Under the pieces are notes generated by a model. That model saw nothing but the letters and a program-made list of their open reading frames with translations. It searched no databases and was not told the origin of the DNA. The position numbers and the translations under genes were made by a program. A stretch of 64,000 nt of DNA from Paenibacillus sp. FSL H8-0079 (lineage in GTDB: Bacteria > Bacillota > Bacilli > Paenibacillales > Paenibacillaceae), in the NCBI RefSeq assembly GCF_037991315.1, contig NZ_CP150300.1, forward strand, positions 3,968,001 through 4,032,000, in the 5' to 3' direction. This document shows, one piece after another, positions 3,392-12,440 of this stretch. Every line of letters begins with the position of its first letter. The first letter of the stretch is position 1.

Positions 3392-3635
3392 ACGGTTATT
3401 TCTCCTCCTTGGGCATACATCTCATTATTGTACTGTATGCCGAGGAAATGCGGCTCATACCTGTATCCATAGACATCGTTCAGTTTAATAAAAGTATTCA
3501 AGCAAGTCATGCTCTATTATCACAAAATGGAAGTCTCTGAACGGCTTTGATATAATTCATCTATTATTAGTTATGCAGGATACTTGGTGCAATAGTAGCT
3601 TAGCTTCGATTGGTACAGAACGAAAGGAGCATACA

Positions 3636-5174
3636 ATGATCCCTAATGTTGGAGATATATACTGCGTGTACGTCGAAAAATTACAACAATACACAGCCTG
3701 CCAGGTAACTGGACTGAAAGAAACGGAGGGTAAAACTTCCGACACGCTTGCCTCAGTTCTTCAATTGGATTGGACTGGTGACCAACTGCCGAATGAAATG
3801 CAGCTTCATCAGATGAAGCCACTGATCTGTAATTTTTATTTTTGGAATGATCGAGTTGACCATAGTTTCGTGAGTGCTAATGTTCCTTCACAGTATGTGC
3901 TTGCAGGCAATATCCCGCCTCTCTATACCAAGGAAACGAATACGTATGGCGGAGGCTGGCCAATCGGAGAAAAGCTCTATCTCCAGCGTGAATGGGAAGG
4001 TATTGATGCGATCCGAAGAGAACAGTTCAAACAAGCTGCGGATGATGACGAAGAAATCATGATTGGCGATCGTGTAATGCGGCGAAGTACGAGCACACTC
4101 CGCGATTTCAGCCCTAAGTTTGAGGAAGATATAACCGAACTCACAAAGCTACCCTGTCTAACACATATTGAAATGAATGGATATACGGAATCGATCTTTC
4201 CATTTATAGAAGATAATCCGTTTATTAATGAACTTCATATCATAGATCATGGTCAAACGATGCTGGATATCAGCAAGAGTCACCTGACCAAACTTATTGT
4301 GGATGTCAGCGGGTTGGAGCGGTTAATTTTGAACACGAAGATGACGAGTCTGAACTTCACAGGAGAGCTGTCCCCTAGTCTTTGTATCGTAGCTCATGAA
4401 GATGGTAAACGCATCACTCTGAATGTCCCAGTGGACTTGCCACAGGTTACTGGTATTTCGCGACTTGAAGGTCTGTATATCAGAGATATCACGGAACTCA
4501 ATCTGGAGCCAATTGTCCAGTACTATCCTGAGCTTTCAGAATTACGATTGTGGGGCAAACCCGGCAATGTATCCCATATAGAAACGATTCAGCATTTGGC
4601 GAATTTGCAAACCTTCACTACATATGACCTGTTCGGCTTCGACGGTGATCAATTCCCTGATCCAGAGCAGCTTCCCGAATTGGCTACGCTGTGGCTAACC
4701 AGCCTGCCTGCCGATGCAGCCAAATCGATCAAAACAAAATTCAAAAAACTTGCTGCTGCCGGACTTGATGTGGAGATCACCAAAGCACGCAAACCGGAAT
4801 GGCTTGCCGAGAACCTGAACAATCCGTTTCGGGATTGGGATGGAAGGGACCACATCAAGGCAGAACACGCAAAAAAAGCAGCTCATTTGTACAAGCAGTG
4901 CTTGAAGGAAATTCGTCAATTAAGTCAAGGTCCAATGGATCAGGAGTCTATACACAAGCAGCTCGTCTCCATGGTTGAAAACTACACCCAGACCTTCAAC
5001 AAGATGGATGCGAAGACCGGCTTTATTGAAACCGTTGAGCGGGAAGAGATTTATGTTGTTCTAACGGAGCTACTGGATCAGTTGAATGAGCAATTGGAAC
5101 TGCATCAAGATGATTCAGTTAAGGTTAATCACGAGGAATTATTTGAGGTATTTGATCGTTTGAGAGATTTCTAG
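3636..5174 (+). CDS. LRR-like hypothetical protein, 512 aa
   Basis: The start chosen is the ATG at 3636, which has AAAGGAG 6 bases upstream; an in-frame ATG 63 bases earlier has no such site. Residues 1-110 (GDIYCVYVEKLQQYTACQV...) form a distinct domain with a flavour of Imm26-type immunity domains, an inference only. From about 160 to 390 come irregular leucine-rich units (LTHIEMNGY, INELHIIDH, LSELRLWGK, LATLWLTSL). The last 120 residues are helical (DGRDHIKAEHAKKAAHLYKQ). No signal peptide or membrane segment, so cytoplasmic. Function unknown; LRRs suggest protein binding. Confidence 0.75.
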   Translation: MIPNVGDIYCVYVEKLQQYTACQVTGLKETEGKTSDTLASVLQLDWTGDQLPNEMQLHQMKPLICNFYFWNDRVDHSFVSANVPSQYVLAGNIPPLYTKETNTYGGGWPIGEKLYLQREWEGIDAIRREQFKQAADDDEEIMIGDRVMRRSTSTLRDFSPKFEEDITELTKLPCLTHIEMNGYTESIFPFIEDNPFINELHIIDHGQTMLDISKSHLTKLIVDVSGLERLILNTKMTSLNFTGELSPSLCIVAHEDGKRITLNVPVDLPQVTGISRLEGLYIRDITELNLEPIVQYYPELSELRLWGKPGNVSHIETIQHLANLQTFTTYDLFGFDGDQFPDPEQLPELATLWLTSLPADAAKSIKTKFKKLAAAGLDVEITKARKPEWLAENLNNPFRDWDGRDHIKAEHAKKAAHLYKQCLKEIRQLSQGPMDQESIHKQLVSMVENYTQTFNKMDAKTGFIETVEREEIYVVLTELLDQLNEQLELHQDDSVKVNHEELFEVFDRLRDF

Positions 5175-5244
5175 GTTACATGTTTCGATTCGTTCAGTCG
5201 CTAGGGCGCCAATATTTCATCCAAAAAACAGCTGTTTACGCAAT

Positions 5245-5282
5245 AGAGGGTTCTGTAATGAATTTTGCAGGATCCTCTTTTT
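5245..5282 (+). terminator. Rho-independent terminator
   Basis: AGAGGGTTCTG pairs with CAGGATCCTCT around a 12-base loop and is followed by a T-run, 70 bases past the LRR-like gene. Confidence 0.7.
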
Positions 5283-5469
5283 ATGAATACATTTTCTTCT
5301 ACTATACTTATCCCTTTACGTATAATTTAATATAACATCAACGAGTTTAAGCAGGGCTAGGAAGTGAAGATTCTCAATGTATTCTGTTTCACGGTATGTG
5401 TAGTTGTTCTTATTTTAACCGCTCATTAATTCGACATCTTCTGTCTCTGAAATTTGAAGTTACTATTCC

Positions 5470-5682
5470 TCACCCCTTCCTAAAGAAAGAATTTGTTTTA
5501 TGTATCTTTTTTTTCTCGAATGCGATCCATGAATAATACGATACCCAGAATAGTAACGGAAATATCGCTACTGCAATATAGCGTTTATCATGAGGGAGCG
5601 TAAAGATAGTAACAATGGCGATCGGTAAAATAATGGCAAGTAGAATTAAATATTTGCCCCAATGTCTTTTTAATATCTCCAA
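5470..5682 (-). CDS. Small membrane protein, 70 aa
   Basis: Two hydrophobic segments (about residues 9-27 and 35-54) and a basic C-terminal tail (FEKKKIHKTNSFFRKG). The TTG at 5682 follows AGGAGG by only 2 bases, which is too close to be ideal, so the exact start is open. Not recognised; the two-segment hairpin is all that can be said. Confidence 0.45.
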   Translation of the reverse strand: MEILKRHWGKYLILLAIILPIAIVTIFTLPHDKRYIAVAIFPLLFWVSYYSWIAFEKKKIHKTNSFFRKG

Positions 5683-5796
5683 CCCCTCCTTAATCGTTTT
5701 TTTTTACTTGATAAAGATACGACGAACATCTTTTTTGTATTAAATTAACAGAGCATGTACTATATTAACAAGCGTTTAATAGGAGGGATATATTTA

Positions 5797-6267
5797 ATGG
5801 AGGTTTCATTATGTAAAGCAGATTTAAAAGATGCAGCGACTATTCATGAAATGAAAGTCAAAGCATTTATGCCTTTGTTGGAAAAATATCAGGATTTTGA
5901 AACAAGCCCCGCCAATGAAACCGTAGAAAGAATTGTTACTCAACTCAATCAATCTTGTACAGATTATTTTATAATTCTTCATCTTGAAGTTGCTATTGGT
6001 GGAATTAGAATCGTGAAAAAGGATAATCAAATCTACAGTGTTAGCCCCATTTTTATACTGCCAGAACATCAAGGAAAAGGAATTGCTCAAAAAGTCTTTA
6101 TAATGGTTGAGCAGATTTATGATGAGGCGAAATCATGGAAATTGGGTACCATCTTACAAGAGAAAGGAAACTGTTATTTGTATGAAAAGATTGGCTATAA
6201 AAAAACGGGTGCAACAAAAGTGATTAACAACAAAATGACAATGGTATTTTATGAAAAGCATTTATAG
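5797..6267 (+). CDS. GNAT family N-acetyltransferase
   Basis: 156 residues with GNAT layout: an N-terminal strand-helix, a central beta strand (IGGIRIVKK) and the acetyl-CoA loop ILPEHQGKGIAQKVFIMVEQ (Q/RxxGxG/A) at about residues 85-104. The C-terminal NCYLYEKIGYKKTG matches the usual F/YYEKxGF motif. The ATG at 5797 follows AGGAGGG by 9 bases and is preferred over an in-frame ATG 42 bases upstream. Substrate unknown. It transfers acetyl groups from acetyl-CoA to an amine, as in the family. Confidence 0.85.
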   Translation: MEVSLCKADLKDAATIHEMKVKAFMPLLEKYQDFETSPANETVERIVTQLNQSCTDYFIILHLEVAIGGIRIVKKDNQIYSVSPIFILPEHQGKGIAQKVFIMVEQIYDEAKSWKLGTILQEKGNCYLYEKIGYKKTGATKVINNKMTMVFYEKHL

Positions 6268-6287
6268 ATGCATAAACATTGGATTAA

Positions 6288-6315
6288 GTTAACCGCCTTA
6301 CGGTGGGCGGTTAAC
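6288..6315 (+). terminator. Hairpin after GNAT gene
   Basis: Perfect 10-bp stem GTTAACCGCC / GGCGGTTAAC with an 8-base loop, 20 bases past the stop codon. The T-run after it is weak. Confidence 0.6.
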
Positions 6316-6414
6316 GTTTGTATGAAATTCACAAGCAAGTTTAACATAGCTGATCACTGTGTTGCCTTCTTAAGTTATATTAACCTAACGTTTCTATTAA
6401 TAAGCAGTGAGCAA

Positions 6415-6720
6415 TCATACAGTTAGTCCAAGCTTATTAATGAGTAAATCACCTTGTTCGATTTTCAATGAGTTCTTTTCTTGTTTGAATTCCCAACCAA
6501 TTTCATTCGCATACCTTATTAAAAGTTCGCAATTCCTAGGTCTGTGTGGGTTAAAGTGCCAACTAGCTTCCCATGTAAATAAGACTTCAAAATATGTGGT
6601 TCTAGATGAATAAACCTTAAAATTAACAAACTTATTACTAGGAATCTCATTGATAACACAGTGAAATTGATAACCATTTACCATTATCTTTTTAGCTCTC
6701 TTGCTGAATGTCTTTCCCAT
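6415..6720 (-). CDS. Hypothetical protein, 101 aa
   Basis: The ATG at 6720 follows AGGAGGGG by 7 bases and is chosen over an in-frame start at 6759. The protein is basic at its N-terminus (GKTFSKRAKKI) and rich in Trp and aromatics (VLFTWEASWHFNPHRPRN, EIGWEFKQEKNSLKIEQGDL). Not recognised. It is the last unit of the motif-bounded series of minus-strand genes; the 11-bp motif lies 87 bases upstream of its start, but its downstream boundary copy is missing or too degraded to call (only CTAAC remains near 6427). Confidence 0.55.
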   Translation of the reverse strand: MGKTFSKRAKKIMVNGYQFHCVINEIPSNKFVNFKVYSSRTTYFEVLFTWEASWHFNPHRPRNCELLIRYANEIGWEFKQEKNSLKIEQGDLLINKLGLTV

Positions 6721-6806
6721 ACATATGCCCCTCCTGAAACACAATAGTTTTTCAAGCATGGCAAGTCATACCTTAGTCCAAAATTATATCACATATTAGA
6801 ACTATA

Positions 6807-6817
6807 CTGCCCGTTAG
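6807..6817 (-). repeat. Unit-boundary motif, copy A
   Basis: Minus strand CTAACGGGCAG, overlapping the stop codon region of the AAA ATPase gene and 87 bases upstream of the next gene. One of five copies that each fall between two consecutive genes. Confidence 0.6.
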
Positions 6818-6818
6818 C

Positions 6819-7589
6819 TTAATCTTGAGCTTCTTCGAATAACTCTCTGAGCATCCTATCCTTATTATTTACAAACTCTTTCATAATCATAAAATGGTCG
6901 GTTTCTTCCAATACTTGGACCTCGATACCATCCGGCTTTAGATTGTAAATAATCGAATCTGGGTATGCCATAAGGATTGGGGAATGGGTCGCAATAATAA
7001 ATTGAGAGTTTTGCAAAACAAGTTCATGGATTCGTGTCAGCATCGCCATTTGGCGAAGGGGAGACAATGCAGCCTCAGGCTCATCCAGTATATATAATCC
7101 ATTCTCCCCAAACCGATGAATGAACGTGGAAAAGAACGACTCTCCATGCGATTGCTCATGCAAGGACTTGCCACCGTACGAATCTTTAATAGGGCGAATC
7201 GGGCGACCGAATGAAGGTTGGCTGTCCAACTCATCGATCGTCGTGGCTAAATTATAATAACTTTCTGCCCGGAAGAAGAAGCCATCCCTCGGGCGTCGCG
7301 GGCCTCTGATCAATTGTATATATTCATATAAGCTCGAGTGGGTAGCCTGGGTTGAGAAGGAAAAGTTGATCGTCCCACCCTCCGGGTTAAATCCCCATGC
7401 GACAGCAATGGACTCCATCAGTGTTGATTTGCCCATCCCATTTTCACCTACGATATAGGTTACCTGGGGGTGGAAATCAAGAGTATGTAGGCTTCGAATG
7501 ACTGCCAAATTAAAGGGGTAACGATTATAAGTGGGTACTTGGTGCCTTTTGAGCTGAATTTGTCGTAAATAGGAATGCTGTACATTCAA
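6819..7589 (-). CDS. AAA family ATPase (ABC/SMC-type fold)
   Basis: 256 residues with Walker A GENGMGKST (about 48-56), a signature-like SHGES (about 147-151), Walker B LYILDEPEAALS (about 165-176) and a switch His in IATHSPILMA. This is the compact single-polypeptide ATPase head related to the RecF/OLD group, without a nuclease domain. TTG start with AAGGGAG 9 bases upstream. Function is unknown: homologues occur singly as accessory genes. It is one unit of the motif-bounded array. Confidence 0.8.
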   Translation of the reverse strand: MNVQHSYLRQIQLKRHQVPTYNRYPFNLAVIRSLHTLDFHPQVTYIVGENGMGKSTLMESIAVAWGFNPEGGTINFSFSTQATHSSLYEYIQLIRGPRRPRDGFFFRAESYYNLATTIDELDSQPSFGRPIRPIKDSYGGKSLHEQSHGESFFSTFIHRFGENGLYILDEPEAALSPLRQMAMLTRIHELVLQNSQFIIATHSPILMAYPDSIIYNLKPDGIEVQVLEETDHFMIMKEFVNNKDRMLRELFEEAQD

Positions 7590-7649
7590 TATAGTTCACT
7601 CCCTTTAGTTTACTGCATCAATCAGATAATACCACATACCGAAATTACC

Positions 7650-7660
7650 CTGCCCGTTAG
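7650..7660 (-). repeat. Unit-boundary motif, copy B
   Basis: Minus strand CTAACGGGCAG, preceded by TTATTGAA and beginning within three bases of the stop codon of the lipoprotein gene at 7662. The 35 bases after it (GGTAATTTCGGTATGTGGTA...) resemble those after copy A. Confidence 0.6.
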
Positions 7661-7661
7661 T

Positions 7662-8174
7662 TCAATAAGATAGATGAACAGTATCGTCCGGGTCTGAACC
7701 AGCATATCCCCATACTTCCCCTTCAACGTGATAACCGCCACCACTCCATTGAAGCAAGTAGCCTCCAGTATCCATACCTTGTGTGATACCTTCTTTACTA
7801 TTTATCCAATTTAAAGATTCCCCGGGAGCAATCGTTCTAGCGAGATACACTTTACTAGTATCTAAGTGCGTTAAGCTAACATTAACTTCATGGCTACTAT
7901 TGTTCTTCATAAGCAGTTTTATATGTACAAATTCAGGATTTACGGAAAAGGGTTGCTGTACCGTTGCGCCTCCAGAAACAATATAGTGAGAGGGTTTGCT
8001 CTCACGTTCGCTTAAAGAATTGGTATGGGTTGTACTTTCGGAATTGCTTGATAATACAACAGATTTTGGAGTAGACATATTCTCTTGAGTTGAACTTGTT
8101 GAATCACAGGCAGTTCCTGTCGCTGCTGTTAAGGCTAATGATACAACAGTAAAAAATAGTCTCTTTTTCTTCAA
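7662..8174 (-). CDS. Putative secreted protein or lipoprotein, 170 aa
   Basis: The N-terminus KKKRLFFTVVSLALTAATGTAC is a signal peptide; the Cys at residue 23 follows GTA, an imperfect lipobox, so lipidation is likely but not certain. A Ser/Thr-rich spacer (to about 60) leads to a beta-rich domain with VHIKLLMKNNSSHEVNVSL and YLLQWSGGGYHVEGEVWGY. TTG start after GGGGAT with 6 bases between. Not assigned to a family. It is one unit of the motif-bounded array. Confidence 0.65.
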   Translation of the reverse strand: MKKKRLFFTVVSLALTAATGTACDSTSSTQENMSTPKSVVLSSNSESTTHTNSLSERESKPSHYIVSGGATVQQPFSVNPEFVHIKLLMKNNSSHEVNVSLTHLDTSKVYLARTIAPGESLNWINSKEGITQGMDTGGYLLQWSGGGYHVEGEVWGYAGSDPDDTVHLSY

Positions 8175-8297
8175 TACTTCATCCCCAGTTTTCTTTTATA
8201 AGTTATTCTAAAACCCTATAAGAAGTTCCTCGTTATTAACAACACTATCAATCAATAAAAGTTACACCTGTAATTCGCAAGATGGCATTGAGTTAAC

Positions 8298-8308
8298 CTG
8301 TCCGTTAC
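8298..8308 (-). repeat. Unit-boundary motif, copy C
   Basis: Minus strand GTAACGGACAG, 5 bases after the T-run of the terminator that ends the lipoprotein gene at 8390. Slightly diverged from copies A and B. Confidence 0.5.
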
Positions 8309-8345
8309 TGGAACAAAAGCAGCAGATCACATTGATCAGCTGCTT
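8309..8345 (-). terminator. Rho-independent terminator
   Basis: Minus strand AAAGCAGC-T-GATC / GATC-T-GCTGCTTT stem followed by TTTTGTTCC, 45 bases past the gene at 8390. Confidence 0.75.
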
Positions 8346-8389
8346 TCTTCGTATTATTGAGCTATCATTTCCTTTTGGCTTAACCAATT

Positions 8390-8836
8390 TTAGTTTTGGA
8401 CAAATTCAGCAGATACAATAGTTTTGTTCCATTCCACATGGATTGTGTAGGAGCCGGGCTTCAGTTTCGAAAATGTCTTTATATCTGTATAGTCCTGACC
8501 AGGCTCCAAATCAATATAGTCTTTTGTTGGTACAACACCTTCGTCTACTTCTTTGTTGTTTTTTATCAACCTATACCTTGCTCCGCCAATAACATTCACT
8601 ATTTTTTCGCTTTGATTTTTGAAAGTATACATTACGTTAGTATCGGAACCTACGTTTTCTACCTTAACGGAACCGACTAAATTAGATTGATTTGTATTTC
8701 TGTTTGGTCCTAATGGTTCCTTTTTTAAAATATTTGTGGCTATTGGTTCTGACTCCATATTTTCCTTGGTACAGCCTGCAAAAATCATGCACACTACTAA
8801 AACTAACATTATGATGGAGCTATTCATTTTCGTCAT
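8390..8836 (-). CDS. Putative lipoprotein, 148 aa
   Basis: The ATG at 8836 (CGGAG 9 bases upstream) gives MTKMNSSIIMLVLVVCM followed by lipobox IFAGC, a textbook lipoprotein signal. The mature part has a short spacer and one beta-sandwich-like domain (VGSVKVENVGSDTNVMYTFKN, LEPGQDYTDIKTFSKLKPG, SYTIHVEWN) like extracellular Ig/BsuPI-type domains. A longer reading to 8893 exists but has no ribosome binding site. Function unknown. Confidence 0.7.
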   Translation of the reverse strand: MTKMNSSIIMLVLVVCMIFAGCTKENMESEPIATNILKKEPLGPNRNTNQSNLVGSVKVENVGSDTNVMYTFKNQSEKIVNVIGGARYRLIKNNKEVDEGVVPTKDYIDLEPGQDYTDIKTFSKLKPGSYTIHVEWNKTIVSAEFVQN

Positions 8837-8916
8837 TAGTATCATCTCCGTATAATTAGACGAACACTTTCTTGAATAGGTTGCTAATTTCAATGTTGTG
8901 TCACTATTCAGGTAAA

Positions 8917-8927
8917 ACGCCCATTAG
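8917..8927 (-). repeat. Unit-boundary motif, copy D
   Basis: Minus strand CTAATGGGCGT, preceded by TTATTCAA. It contains the stop codon of the phosphotransferase gene. Confidence 0.5.
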
Positions 8928-9898
8928 TTGAATAAGAAACTTTCTCCTTTAGAATATTTTATAAAATAATGTTGAATAACTGATGGGAGACTAGCTGCCA
9001 AAGATTGTTGTTCGTTTGGATTTAAAGAATGAAATGCAAAAATCCTTATTATTGACCATATAAAGAAAGCTTCTAATAACTCTATATAATTTTCTTCTAG
9101 TTGATTTACTTTACTATATGATTTAATGAATATTTTCCTATTTTCAACTGAAAGATGCAGAAATGTTTCAGCCATATCAAATAAATAAAAGCCATAACCA
9201 CAATTCGAAAAATCTATTGGTCGAGGAATATCTTCATAAAACACATAATTACTCTCGTGAAGGTCGGAATGAATGATTCCCCAGTTACACTGTTCTCCCT
9301 TATGTCTTTCTATCATTTTTGCTATTTTATGTGCTGACTCCTCCACATAAGAAAATGCTTCACTTGACACAAGTTCTAAATTTACCAACTGTTTTAATTG
9401 ATTAAGTGAAGAATATAAATGATCGGAATTGTATATTGGTCTATTAAAGCCGTCAGGTGCATTCCACTTCATAGAATGTTTATGTAAAGCCGCCATTAAA
9501 AGAGCCAAATTGGCAGTTTCATTACTTGTTGGCTCTCTGTTAAGCACCTTACCATTAACCCACTGGTGAACAGTCACAAGGAATTTATTGTCATTATAAT
9601 CAGTTGATATAACTGTGACCAGATCACCTTCGAGATTCCTTATAGGATTAGGTACAACAAGACCTGTATCTTCATTCAAGGCTTCAAGCCACATGAGTTC
9701 TGATTCGATATTTTCCTTTGAGTAATTGGAGCTCTTCGAGATATGGATTTTGATAAGAAACTTCGGATTATCGTCTTTTGTATGAACTCGGAATGTAACA
9801 TTATCACTTTCCCCGAGGTATACAATTTCACTAAAAATTATCGGGTATTGAATTAAGGCTTCTTTTGCTACCTTCGTATAATCCTCTTCAGAAAACAT
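8924..9898 (-). CDS. Aminoglycoside/choline-kinase-type phosphotransferase
   Basis: 324 residues with the APH fold. The catalytic loop is seen as IIHSDLHESNY (HxDxxxxN) and the metal-binding motif as PIDFSNCGYG (the usual D-F-G/E). An N-terminal ATP-binding lobe contains FLIKIHISK. It is closest in style to the Ser/Thr protein-kinase-like YihE/APH group found widely in Bacillota; antibiotic resistance is possible but not shown. The ATG at 9898 follows GGGGTGG by 5 bases; an ATG 24 bases upstream is an alternative. It is one unit of the motif-bounded array. Confidence 0.8.
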   Translation of the reverse strand: MFSEEDYTKVAKEALIQYPIIFSEIVYLGESDNVTFRVHTKDDNPKFLIKIHISKSSNYSKENIESELMWLEALNEDTGLVVPNPIRNLEGDLVTVISTDYNDNKFLVTVHQWVNGKVLNREPTSNETANLALLMAALHKHSMKWNAPDGFNRPIYNSDHLYSSLNQLKQLVNLELVSSEAFSYVEESAHKIAKMIERHKGEQCNWGIIHSDLHESNYVFYEDIPRPIDFSNCGYGFYLFDMAETFLHLSVENRKIFIKSYSKVNQLEENYIELLEAFFIWSIIRIFAFHSLNPNEQQSLAASLPSVIQHYFIKYSKGESFLFN

Positions 9899-9990
9899 AA
9901 CATCCACCCCAGTTGTTTCCATTTTTATAAAATGATTATATCAGGAATATTTATGCTATGAAGACCAAGATTGATTATAAACAAACTCTA

Positions 9991-10001
9991 CTGTCCATCA
10001 G
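9991..10001 (-). repeat. Unit-boundary motif, copy E
   Basis: Minus strand CTGATGGACAG, preceded by TTTTTAAA, 93 bases upstream of the phosphotransferase start. It is the most diverged copy and closes the array on its upstream side. Confidence 0.45.
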
Positions 10002-10269
10002 TTTAAAAAGATGCGCATTGCACAGTGTTGTCCGGATGCAACAGAAAAAGACCAAAAATTAATTAATATGTTGGCGACTTAAGTAGTGGTAAAAGAATAA
10101 ACGAAAATTAACGTGAATAATCTAGGGAGTGTCTTGTGCTCTTCTGATGACAATTATATAAGATTGACAGAAAAAGATGGGGGTTTATGCACTATTCGCA
10201 TTTGATTTTTATCGCTTTCATAGAGAATCGCATTTAACATGCTTACTTTGACATAATAATGTATGCTTG
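10002..10269. other. Intergenic region
   Basis: No gene that I can support. The last codons before copy E on the minus strand read ...CAMRIFLN then stop, so a lost array gene may have ended here, but no ORF remains. Confidence 0.35.
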
Positions 10270-10299
10270 TTGAGCCCCACCTTGGGAGTATGCTAAGAT
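10270..10299 (+). promoter_or_regulatory. Possible sigma-A promoter
   Basis: TTGAGC at 10270 and TAAGAT at 10294 with an 18-base spacer, 55 bases before the serine hydrolase start. Confidence 0.4.
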
Positions 10300-10354
10300 A
10301 ATGGACACCTATTTCCACAAAATCAATACAAATCAAACGCATAGAAAGGACACT

Positions 10355-11335
10355 ATGAATCCTTCATCACTGTCATCCAAGTTACAACAGATCGTTCCAC
10401 AACTGGATCTGCGAAGCTGCCTTGTCAGCGTACGCGGTGAGATTATGTACGAACACTACCGCAACCAAGAGGCTGCGACTGATATTGCAAAAATCAATTC
10501 TTGTACCAAGAGTGTGCTATCCGCACTCATTTGTATAGCGATGGATAAGGGGATTTTGCCTGAGGCATCTACCCCAATATCCACCTTTTTCCCGCAGTTG
10601 ACATCTGATCCTGATCCGCGCAAACCAGCGATCACACTGGAACAACTGCTTACCATGACAGCCGGATTCAACTGGGACGAGTTCGGCGGGCAGAATTCAT
10701 TCCCTCGCATGACCCGCACCGATCATTGGGTGGATTTTGCATTGGAACAACGCTTAAGTCATGAACCGGGTACATACATGGAATACAACTCCGGAGTATC
10801 ACAGATCCTATCCGCCATCCTGATGCAAAATGCAGGTATGAACGTAGCCGAGTTCGCAGAACGTTATCTTTTTGGCCCGCTGGGAATTAAGGATTATGAA
10901 TGGGAAAGTGACCCTCAAGGTGTACATACTGGCGGATTCGGTCTTAAAATGTTGCCCGCGGATCTACTGAAATTCGGTCAGCTGTTTCTACAGCAAGGTA
11001 TGTGGGAGGGTGAATCTCTCATTTCAAGTGATCTGGTATCGCGTTCGACGCAGCCTTTCATTACAGTCACTCCACCGAATCACGTAAGTTATGCTTGGCA
11101 TTGGTGGGTGGATGTCTATCCGAATGAAAGGTCTGTTGCCGAAGATATTACTGCTGAAGACGACAAACCCAATCTCCATTATTATTACGCGCGAGGGTTC
11201 GGTGGGCAGTATGTATACATTGTCCCAGAGCTGGAACTCGTTACGGTTTTAACTAATGACAAACGAAAGAAAGAGAAGCCTCCGCTGGATGTTTTCCCTC
11301 GATTAATCGCCCCTGAGCTATGGAAAATCTTATAA
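10355..11335 (+). CDS. Serine hydrolase, beta-lactamase/DD-peptidase fold
   Basis: 326 residues. The SxxK nucleophile motif is SCTKS (about residue 50), the second-motif Tyr is in MEYNSGVSQ (YxN, about 148-150), and a third motif-like HTGGFGLKM follows. No signal peptide is visible, so it is probably cytoplasmic: an esterase or amide hydrolase of the AmpC/class C-like group rather than a secreted penicillin-binding protein. The ATG at 10355 has AAAGGA 4 bases upstream and is preferred over 10301. It converges on a second, broken hydrolase of the same superfamily. Confidence 0.85.
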   Translation: MNPSSLSSKLQQIVPQLDLRSCLVSVRGEIMYEHYRNQEAATDIAKINSCTKSVLSALICIAMDKGILPEASTPISTFFPQLTSDPDPRKPAITLEQLLTMTAGFNWDEFGGQNSFPRMTRTDHWVDFALEQRLSHEPGTYMEYNSGVSQILSAILMQNAGMNVAEFAERYLFGPLGIKDYEWESDPQGVHTGGFGLKMLPADLLKFGQLFLQQGMWEGESLISSDLVSRSTQPFITVTPPNHVSYAWHWWVDVYPNERSVAEDITAEDDKPNLHYYYARGFGGQYVYIVPELELVTVLTNDKRKKEKPPLDVFPRLIAPELWKIL

Positions 11336-11370
11336 CCGGAGGCAGTCCTATCTATCCTGTTCGACCAATG

Positions 11371-11414
11371 AACCCCCAATCTTGTGGCCATAACCTGACC
11401 ATAGGTTGGGGGTT
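11371..11414. terminator. Bidirectional terminator
   Basis: AACCCCCAA and TTGGGGGTT arms around an inner AACCT/AGGTT stem, between two convergent genes. Confidence 0.65.
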
Positions 11415-11419
11415 ATTCG

Positions 11420-12440
11420 TCATGCCAAAGCTTCTTCGATAGCAATTGTTATTGGATACGGACCAGACTCTTGATTAGAGACCACAACCAGTTGTAGATC
11501 ATAGTCCGGATACACGGAAGACATGAACGACACCCCTGGATCAAACCCCATGACATGAAATTTGAAAATGTCTTCCTCCTTGCGGTCAATCCAGATACCC
11601 TGCCCATAGTACTCTTCATCCTCTTGATGAGCATGTGGTGTTAATAACTGCTGTGTCGTCTCTTCATTCAACAATTGGGGACCCAGCAAAGCATCCCAAA
11701 ATCGAATCATATCCGGTGCCGTAACATAGGCCCCACCGTCCGATCCACCTTTGACAGGAATGGAGAACATATTGGTATTCCAAGAGCCATCTTCATGATC
11801 GATATACCCTAAAGCTGTGTTACGCGGGAGCTGATCTGTTAAGAAATAACCGGAGTCTTTCATGCCACACCTTTTGAAAATGTGCTCTTCCACATAATCT
11901 GTAAACGCCAGTCCTGAATGTTGCTCCACGATAAGCCCCAGCACAATGAAACCCGCATTGTTGTAGTGAAAACGTTCACCCGGAGCAGACTTCATTGGCA
12001 AATGCTGAAACATGGGCAGAAAGTCACTTAATCGCCGCATCGTGTAGACGGGTCTGTCTTTCCATAATTCTGAAAAGTCATCCATCACTTCTTCATCGAA
12101 ATAATCCGGAATGCCTGACGTGTGTGTTAACAACTGCTGGATGGTGATTCTTTTGTCCCATAGTGGAAACTCCACATCCAACACATCCGTAAGCTTGGAA
12201 TCCGCAGACAACTTGCCTGCTTCAAATAGTTGCTACACTCACTGCCGTGAAGATCTTACATCCTGATGCAATACCGAACCGTGTATGCACCTGATTAGCC
12301 AGTTCTTCGCTGCGATTCGCATAGCCACGTTTCATATTCAAAAGGGTTTTCCCGCCTTGCTGGAGTAATACAACACCCGAAAAATTCACGCGTTCCATGA
12401 CTTCTTCTACTTTTGTTGTTAGCTCTAATACATTCAACAT
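11420..12440 (-). pseudogene. Serine hydrolase (beta-lactamase fold), frameshifted
   Basis: The N-terminal part reads from an ATG at 12440 (AGGTGG 8 bases upstream) through FGIASGCKIFTAVSV, containing SxxK as SGCK, and then stops at about 12222. Shifting the frame by one base at about 12227 continues smoothly as QLFEAGKLSADSKLTDVL, then LLTHTSGIPDYF and FHYNNAGF (YxN) to 11420. One extra base in GTGTAGCAACTA explains the break. All catalytic motifs are otherwise intact, so this is either a recent mutation or a sequencing error. The intact protein would be about 340 residues and paralogous to the gene it faces. Confidence 0.8.

Follow-up and report, generated by a model that had tools for sequence, protein, structure and literature searches.

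A probable array of mobile gene cassettes in Paenibacillus and its relation to a putative integron-like system of Bacilli

In the present work we analyzed a stretch of 64,000 nucleotides of Paenibacillus sp. FSL H8-0079 (contig NZ_CP150300.1, positions 3,968,001 to 4,032,000; hereafter the window), in which an earlier reading of the bare sequence, the original prediction, had described a row of single-gene cassettes separated by an 11-bp motif. Our results indicate that the window very probably contains a small row of mobile gene cassettes, now in decay, that belongs to an integron-like system of Bacilli. The boundary of the cassettes has to be placed differently, at the border between the left arm and the spacer of a site of about 26 bp, and besides the single-gene units there is a second kind of unit, which carries a terminator-like hairpin or a recombinase gene. 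In other genomes the sites form long directional arrays, and a dedicated tyrosine recombinase is found among them.

Results

All five motif copies that had been placed at 6807, 7650, 8298, 8917 and 9991 are present on the minus strand, and a check of the open reading frames (ORFs) showed one gene per interval, all on this same strand, as had been claimed. The degenerate form CTRAYGGRCAG fits the copies at 6807, 7650 and 9991 and does not fit those at 8298 (GTAACGGACAG) and 8917 (CTAATGGGCGT); 0.21 matches were expected in the window, and three or more occurred in none of 100 shuffles. The statement that four copies lie within one or two bases of CTAACGGGCAG was too generous, the mismatches being 0, 0, 2, 3 and 3. 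With up to two mismatches allowed, the bare 11-mer is found in the window at chance level (10 matches, 8.96 expected). The true signal sits in a longer site of about 26 bp, of which the 11-mer is the core, so the original prediction had the core right and overlooked the outer halves. A model of this site, termed B, was derived from the flanks of array loci in other genomes with the window sequence included, and consists of the left arm TTNARCTAAC, the 6-nt spacer GGGCAG and the right arm GATAGTTCAA. At a score of at least 20 it recovers three of the five window copies (Table 1), as compared to no site in 2.64 Mb of reversed sequence and none in 200 shuffled windows (12.8 Mb). Copies 4 and 5 lie below this threshold and were identified via better sites at the same cassette ends in relatives. 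A second site type, A, mostly has the 7-nt spacer GGGNAAC. In Bacillaceae and Planococcaceae the A spacer is GGGTGC (6 nt) and the B spacer GGGGCAG.

With the 16-mer TTGAACTAACGGGCAG as query, at least 118 matching stretches were obtained; about 74 of the 118 listed belong to Paenibacillus, as counted from the record titles. For the site statistics, 24 of the listed stretches were excluded because of their host (including two from Alicyclobacillus, one from Sulfobacillus and one from Desulfosporosinus) and three further ones because they overlapped others. These statistics are based on our own site model and mostly on loci picked for holding the motif; the family and class samples used below are even.

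In Paenibacillaceae and Bacillaceae the sites are arranged in long, dense rows of the same orientation. We found 413 sites in 851.5 kb as compared to 4 in the same sequence reversed, and adjacent sites not more than 3 kb apart share their orientation in 681 cases and oppose each other in 9. Near-exact B sites number 107 in Paenibacillus sp. V4I3 and 163 in Bacillus sp. FJAT-28004, with one match each to the backward pattern, while the window's own genome has 8 and one backward match. The listed sites of the V4I3 chromosome (G005) are on the plus strand at about 3.18-5.14 Mb and mostly on the minus strand at 5.44-8.07 Mb, as if the arrays tracked the direction of replication (the origin was not located).

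The intervals between a B site and the next site (n = 303) have a median length of 694 bp. Their longest ORF is co-directional in 268, opposite in 27 and absent in 8, and exactly one ORF of at least 80 amino acids (aa) is present in 227 of 295 intervals. In 28 of the 268 co-directional intervals the left arm itself gives the stop codon, and in the window three stop codons (6819-6821, 7662-7664 and 8924-8926) lie within left arms. The overlap of motif copies with stop codons, already remarked on in the original prediction, arises because the left arm supplies these stops. The cassette idea was to be given up if the motif were no commoner at gene ends than by chance; the site turned out to be tied both to gene ends and to arrays.

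An A site is followed by a same-facing B site in 247 cases, in 162 of them with a gap of 30-49 bp. After exclusion of 3 of 170 pairs with short interiors, 142 of 167 A-to-B units form a strong hairpin (40 when shuffled), and in 55 the hairpin is joined by a T-rich tail (2 when shuffled). Many A-B units therefore look like terminators. The window contains one such unit, spanning 8304-8383 together with its A site, which was missing from the original list of units, as was the single-gene unit at 6422-6812. The fold of its hairpin has a z-score of -3.35, equaled by none of 200 shuffles, and similar elements exist at other loci; a search of Rfam gave no gathering-score match in the window and six array loci. 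Directly after the B sites, an extended -10 motif is present in 74 of 408 cases, where shuffles predict 39 and the other strand gives 23; of the 410 A sites, 13 are followed by it, with 20 expected. In the window the motif accompanies copies 1 and 2; in the AAA cassette it reads TGTGGTATTAT and stands just past the site.

To which positions the homology of neighboring units extends was analyzed by all-against-all comparison. The 3' ends of shared segments lie within 20 bp of a B core in 116 of 576 cases (random, 1.3%) and the 5' ends in 49 of 585 (random, 1.5%). Where the upstream gene is the same, the likeness extends across the variable left-arm bases and is random by spacer position 2-3 (12 AA pairs, 4 AB pairs). 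For the 22 BB pairs the break is masked by the conserved spacer, and the likeness stops just past it. Where the downstream unit is the same, the sequences are alike from the spacer onward and the left arm is random (19 BB and 15 AA pairs). According to these pair comparisons, homologous units in different contexts break at the border between left arm and spacer, so that a cassette reaches from one spacer to the next left arm and comprises spacer, right arm, gene and left arm. Several genes at 94-100% identity are trailed by differing terminator units. Exact sharing from site to site was observed in three cases: the lipoprotein-1 unit of the window and Paenibacillus sp. MAEPY2 (L035; 88.5% over 659 bp, with differing flanks), a unit of P. 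alba and V4I3 (98.3%), and a duplicate inside V4I3 (99.1%). Related genomes do differ by site-to-site units, as the original prediction demanded of cassettes. These patterns suggest that the cassettes move as units and that the break occurs inside the site.

At the window locus itself, a match to positions 3573-12211 is present in 58 of 60 genomes of the genus, 15 of which were compared in detail. All 15 have the right flank, and 14 have the left flank on the same stretch; the 20 kb taken from G141 did not include it, and in G148, G147 and G116 its outer part only was present. Between the flanks, no window unit was found in 14 of the 15, including G171 of the same species, in which 4.5 kb of unrelated DNA occupies the place. 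The exception is G133, which contains the AAA unit with differing neighbors. The variable block between the conserved flanks corresponds to window positions 5180-10130, and in relatives it spans anything between about 1.7 kb (G165) and almost 20 kb or more.

Several units of the window (Table 1) do occur as single units elsewhere in relatives. The AAA unit is present in six other genomes (93-97%), and its gene ends in TTAAGCTAAC-GGGCAG in the window, in TTAAGCTAAC-GGGAAAC (A type) in G148, and is followed by different sequence past the stop codon in four other genomes. The lipoprotein-1 gene was found elsewhere in G079 and G127 (89-90%), where its end is followed by AGTAAAC instead of the GGGCAG seen in the window and in L035. 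The kinase unit is shared with six other loci (80-81%; ends at 8919/8924 and 9993/9996). Its homology in relatives begins at 9996, the first spacer base of the decayed copy 5; in L266 it starts at GGGCAG behind unrelated DNA, and L269 reads TTCAGCTAAC-GGGCAG-GTTAGTGTAA at the same kinase gene end where the window has the decayed copy 4. Lipoprotein-2 has no Pfam match, and a homologue of its unit is absent among the relatives' loci compared. In both the window and G136 the 114-aa unit comes behind the AAA gene (in G136 with 66-68 bp extra between), whereas in G148 the unit is absent and the AAA left arm is directly joined to the A-type stretch that trails the 114-aa gene in the others. We regard this unit as a good, if imperfect, apparent case of presence and absence.

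Table 1. Sites and units of the putative cassette array in the window.
Feature	Position	Strand	Remarks
Site copy 5, B type, decayed: TTAAACTGAT-GGACAG-TAGAGTTTGT	9981-10006	minus	Begins kinase cassette
APH-family kinase cassette (spacer, right arm, gene 8924-9922, left arm)	8923-9996	minus	PF01636
Site copy 4, B type, decayed: TTCAACTAAT-GGGCGT-TTTACCTGAA	8907-8932	minus	Kinase stop codon in left arm
Lipoprotein-2 cassette, gene 8390-8893	8374-8922	minus	ORF
A site of mini-cassette	8357-8383	minus	Site model
Terminator-like mini-cassette (A spacer AGGAAAT, right arm, hairpin at about 8315-8346, left arm)	8304-8373	minus	
Site copy 3, B type: TTCCAGTAAC-GGACAG-GTTAACTCAA	8288-8313	minus	Score 23.8
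Lipoprotein-1 cassette, gene 7662-8174	7656-8303	minus	Stop codon within own left arm
Site copy 2, B type: TTGAACTAAC-GGGCAG-GGTAATTTCG	7640-7665	minus	Score 21.6
AAA ATPase cassette, gene 6819-7589	6813-7655	minus	PF13175/PF13304
Site copy 1, B type: TTAAGCTAAC-GGGCAG-TATAGTTCTA	6797-6822	minus	Score 26.0; AAA stop codon in left arm
114-aa ORF unit	6422-6812	minus	Gene 6415-6759 extends into decayed left arm TTGGACTAAC at 6422-6431
Remnant of A-type spacer and right arm, GAAAC-GTTAGGTTAA	6380-6394	minus	By-eye alignment with the A joint of L272 and L268

Furthermore, genomes with arrays repeatedly contain a tyrosine recombinase of about 280 aa. It is at least 50% identical across two groups and less than 32% identical to the other recombinases of the same genomes; in a tree of the recombinases of ten Bacilli genomes its 19 rows form a clade (support 99/100) separate from 21 other recombinases. 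The Pfam cut-off for tyrosine recombinases (PF00589) was passed by six of six proteins, and of the 217 proteins of 270-300 aa that the two database searches yielded, 183 show the residues R-K-HxxR-H-Y. One of the six passes the XerA-type model NF040815 (224.2 bits, cut-off 220) and none those of XerC (335) or XerD (330). The nearest solved structures are XerD and XerA, with IntI4 lower in the list.

In Paenibacillus, where sites were recognized, an A site lies 64-124 bp 5' of the recombinase gene and a B site 22-45 bp 3' of it. In Bacillaceae and Planococcaceae the gene is reversed: the A site is located 44 bp past the 3' end and the B site 67-94 bp ahead of the 5' end. Sites no farther than 260 bp away were detected for 18 of 26 distinct copies (29 rows minus one duplicate and two fragments), five of them with both A and B, and none is arranged otherwise; in the window's genus, L313 has an intact recombinase between A and B. 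The gene occupies the position of the hairpin and therefore probably travels as an A-type unit. In the even family sample the recombinase was found in 19 of 118 genomes. The median number of sites is 18 with and 2 without it (Mann-Whitney p = 1.2e-8), and at least eight sites are present in 17 of 19 genomes with and in 20 of 99 without it. The even class sample gave a match in at least 11 of 250 genomes, a lower bound given the strict limit of E 1e-60 or better. Seven plasmid records encode proteins 60-80% identical to the Bacillus-type protein, and array sites surround it on the two plasmids inspected. The original prediction had no integrase in view, and in the window's genome only a fragment could be found, while other genomes have the dedicated enzyme. 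Truncated or fragmentary copies are located at L184:12440-13123, L214, L216:7694-7861 and L208:18251-18391.

With respect to cargo, 91 of 126 listed cassette proteins, all from two genomes, were scanned. They include six GNAT acetyltransferases, three NUDIX and two HIT proteins and two members of the aminoglycoside-adenylyltransferase family, and many families occur once. On plasmid pSP10-266k of Sporosarcina psychrophila (L287:3111-5838), a B and an A site enclose merR, merA and a NUDIX gene, so that a mercury-resistance operon may travel as a single unit.

Two kinds of longer repeats were also noticed at B sites. In eight cases found by pattern (L034:219, L038 (-), L119 (-), L125:402, L180:6393, L194:8326, L202 (-) and L206 (-)), the B site is trailed by a common leader of about 75 nt ahead of unrelated genes; this shared leader may serve in regulation or as an accessory to recombination. 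Longer units, of some 130-190 bp and with a B site at their end, are present in many copies (L194:8165-8350; L046, L050, L066, L074, L085, L132, L144 and L148). The long A-to-B unit of L194 is found in most of the V4I3 relatives searched, and another long unit shows identical upstream sequence before differing downstream DNA.

Discussion

As a possible mechanism, a linear cassette of spacer, right arm, gene and left arm would, once circularized, contain one complete site of about 26 bp. An XerA/XerD-like tyrosine recombinase would exchange strands at the border of left arm and spacer, by which the stretch between two same-facing sites could be excised and inserted at another site. Gene cassettes begin with GGGCAG, some of them carrying an extended -10 promoter-like motif, and mini-cassettes of about 65 bp begin with GGGNAAC and carry a terminator-like hairpin. 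Recombination as such is suggested by the junctions, and the association and position of the dedicated recombinase point to it as the enzyme of the reaction, with the circle as a presumed intermediate. Because joints whose spacers measure 6 nt and 7 nt replace each other cleanly, the exchange may be limited to a single strand.

Several observations weigh against this interpretation. The longest ORF is on the wrong strand in 27 of 303 intervals. Of the 26 recombinase copies, 8 have no recognized site within 260 bp, and 20 of 99 family genomes without a recombinase match have at least eight sites. The window's genome gave no recombinase match at E 1e-50 and has only the fragment at L216:7694-7861 (56 aa at 50%). 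The base-resolution test includes few independent pairs (12 AA, 4 AB and 22 BB; in reverse 19 and 15), BB pairs cannot locate a break inside the conserved spacer, and many of the 152 BB gene-end pairs stem from few repeat families. The comparison of close strains yielded no clean filled/empty pair that combines both flanks with good sites, and the best case of presence and absence, the 114-aa unit, has a decayed far joint in the window and in G136.

Four other explanations have been considered. The arrangement A-recombinase-B could be an insertion element and A-hairpin-B its nonautonomous short form, similar to a miniature inverted-repeat transposable element (MITE), both inserting behind genes that are themselves static. 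The short and the recombinase-bearing forms do stand side by side as in such elements: A and B enclose the recombinase gene in five of the 26 copies and in L313, and A-hairpin-B as well as longer A-X-B forms exist in many copies. However, genes are shared from site to site in differing contexts and appear to move as units, and the breaks fall inside the site rather than at outer ends, which makes the insertion-element explanation very unlikely as a full account. In part it can hold together with the cassette interpretation, as the hairpin and recombinase units seem to be mobile too.

Alternatively, the host Xer recombinases might act on dif-like sites, as proposed for pdif of Acinetobacter, with the additional recombinase as a bystander. 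The layout of arm, spacer and arm is indeed dif-like, and the genomes with at least eight sites lacking the dedicated recombinase would fit. However, the number of sites follows the dedicated recombinase, which itself lies between sites, and the sites are unidirectional (681 versus 9); we therefore regard the action of host Xer proteins alone as highly improbable. In pdif modules the orientation of the sites alternates, in contrast to the single orientation and the dedicated recombinase seen here. What both have in common are genes flanked by Xer-type arm-spacer-arm sites (PMC11705084, PMC12907356, PMC7399989). The dif systems with a single recombinase, XerA or XerH, resolve chromosome dimers at one site (PMC8138268), whereas many sites and movable genes are found here.

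A strongly diverged true integron with IntI and attC would follow the same logic: the cassettes form a directional array, mostly with one gene and one joint apiece, the boundary lies inside the site, a tyrosine recombinase is associated and many genomes have arrays of sites only, and one NCBIfam match is named tyrosine recombinase/integron integrase. However, six of six recombinases reach only 82-97 bits with the integron integrase model TIGR02249 (cut-off 265), and about 40 residues are missing relative to the IntI4/IntI profile in the IntI-specific insertion region, as estimated from the aligned ranges. Covariation between the arms was not detected (z -2.7 to 1.9). In fold tests, single strands form no single attC-like stem; L107 gave separate stems, and L083 and the window mainly the central hairpin. 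The original prediction's statement that long paired arms of the attC type are absent agrees with both tests. As neither covariation nor an attC-like fold was found, the attC mechanism is not supported and we do not file the system as an integron, although the substrate may still be folded in the cell; a true integron is extremely improbable. Whereas integrons have folded attC sites and a fixed platform of attI and promoter, here the recombinase is XerA/XerD-like, the sites are dif-like and of about 26 bp, terminators form separate units, and part of the cassettes carries a promoter-like motif. An attI-like site was not recognized in a non-exhaustive search; the recombinase gene is embedded in the array among its sites, and in the cases in which A as well as B was found it lies between the two. 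The system works like an integron but fails integron membership. Finally, homologous recombination between short terminator repeats in the absence of a site-specific enzyme, for which the recurrence of hairpin units might speak, deserves next to no weight, as the joint identity is short, informative pairs break within a few bases, several joints have no hairpin, and a recombinase is associated.

Conclusions

Taken together, the array in the window is best explained as a set of cassettes, and on balance we favor the view that it represents a second, independently evolved integron-like system in Paenibacillaceae, Bacillaceae and Planococcaceae. In this system a cassette-borne XerA/XerD-like recombinase would shuffle gene cassettes and separate transcription-terminator cassettes via one common joint, possibly by exchange of a single strand. 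Integrons are regarded as great rarities in Firmicutes, for which the IntegronFinder 2.0 report (PMC9024848) gives one complete integron, in Limnochorda pilosa, and a few integrase-less arrays. A search of open papers gave no description of a system such as the one presented here.

If our interpretation is true, Bacilli own a cassette-shuffling system with more than 100 near-exact sites in single genomes, whose cargo would include acetyltransferases, NUDIX and HIT proteins, kinases, nucleotidyltransferase-like proteins and, on one plasmid, mercury-resistance genes. It would then become possible to test whether cassette arrays have one evolutionary origin or several, and whether the movable terminators serve to insulate neighboring cassettes from each other.

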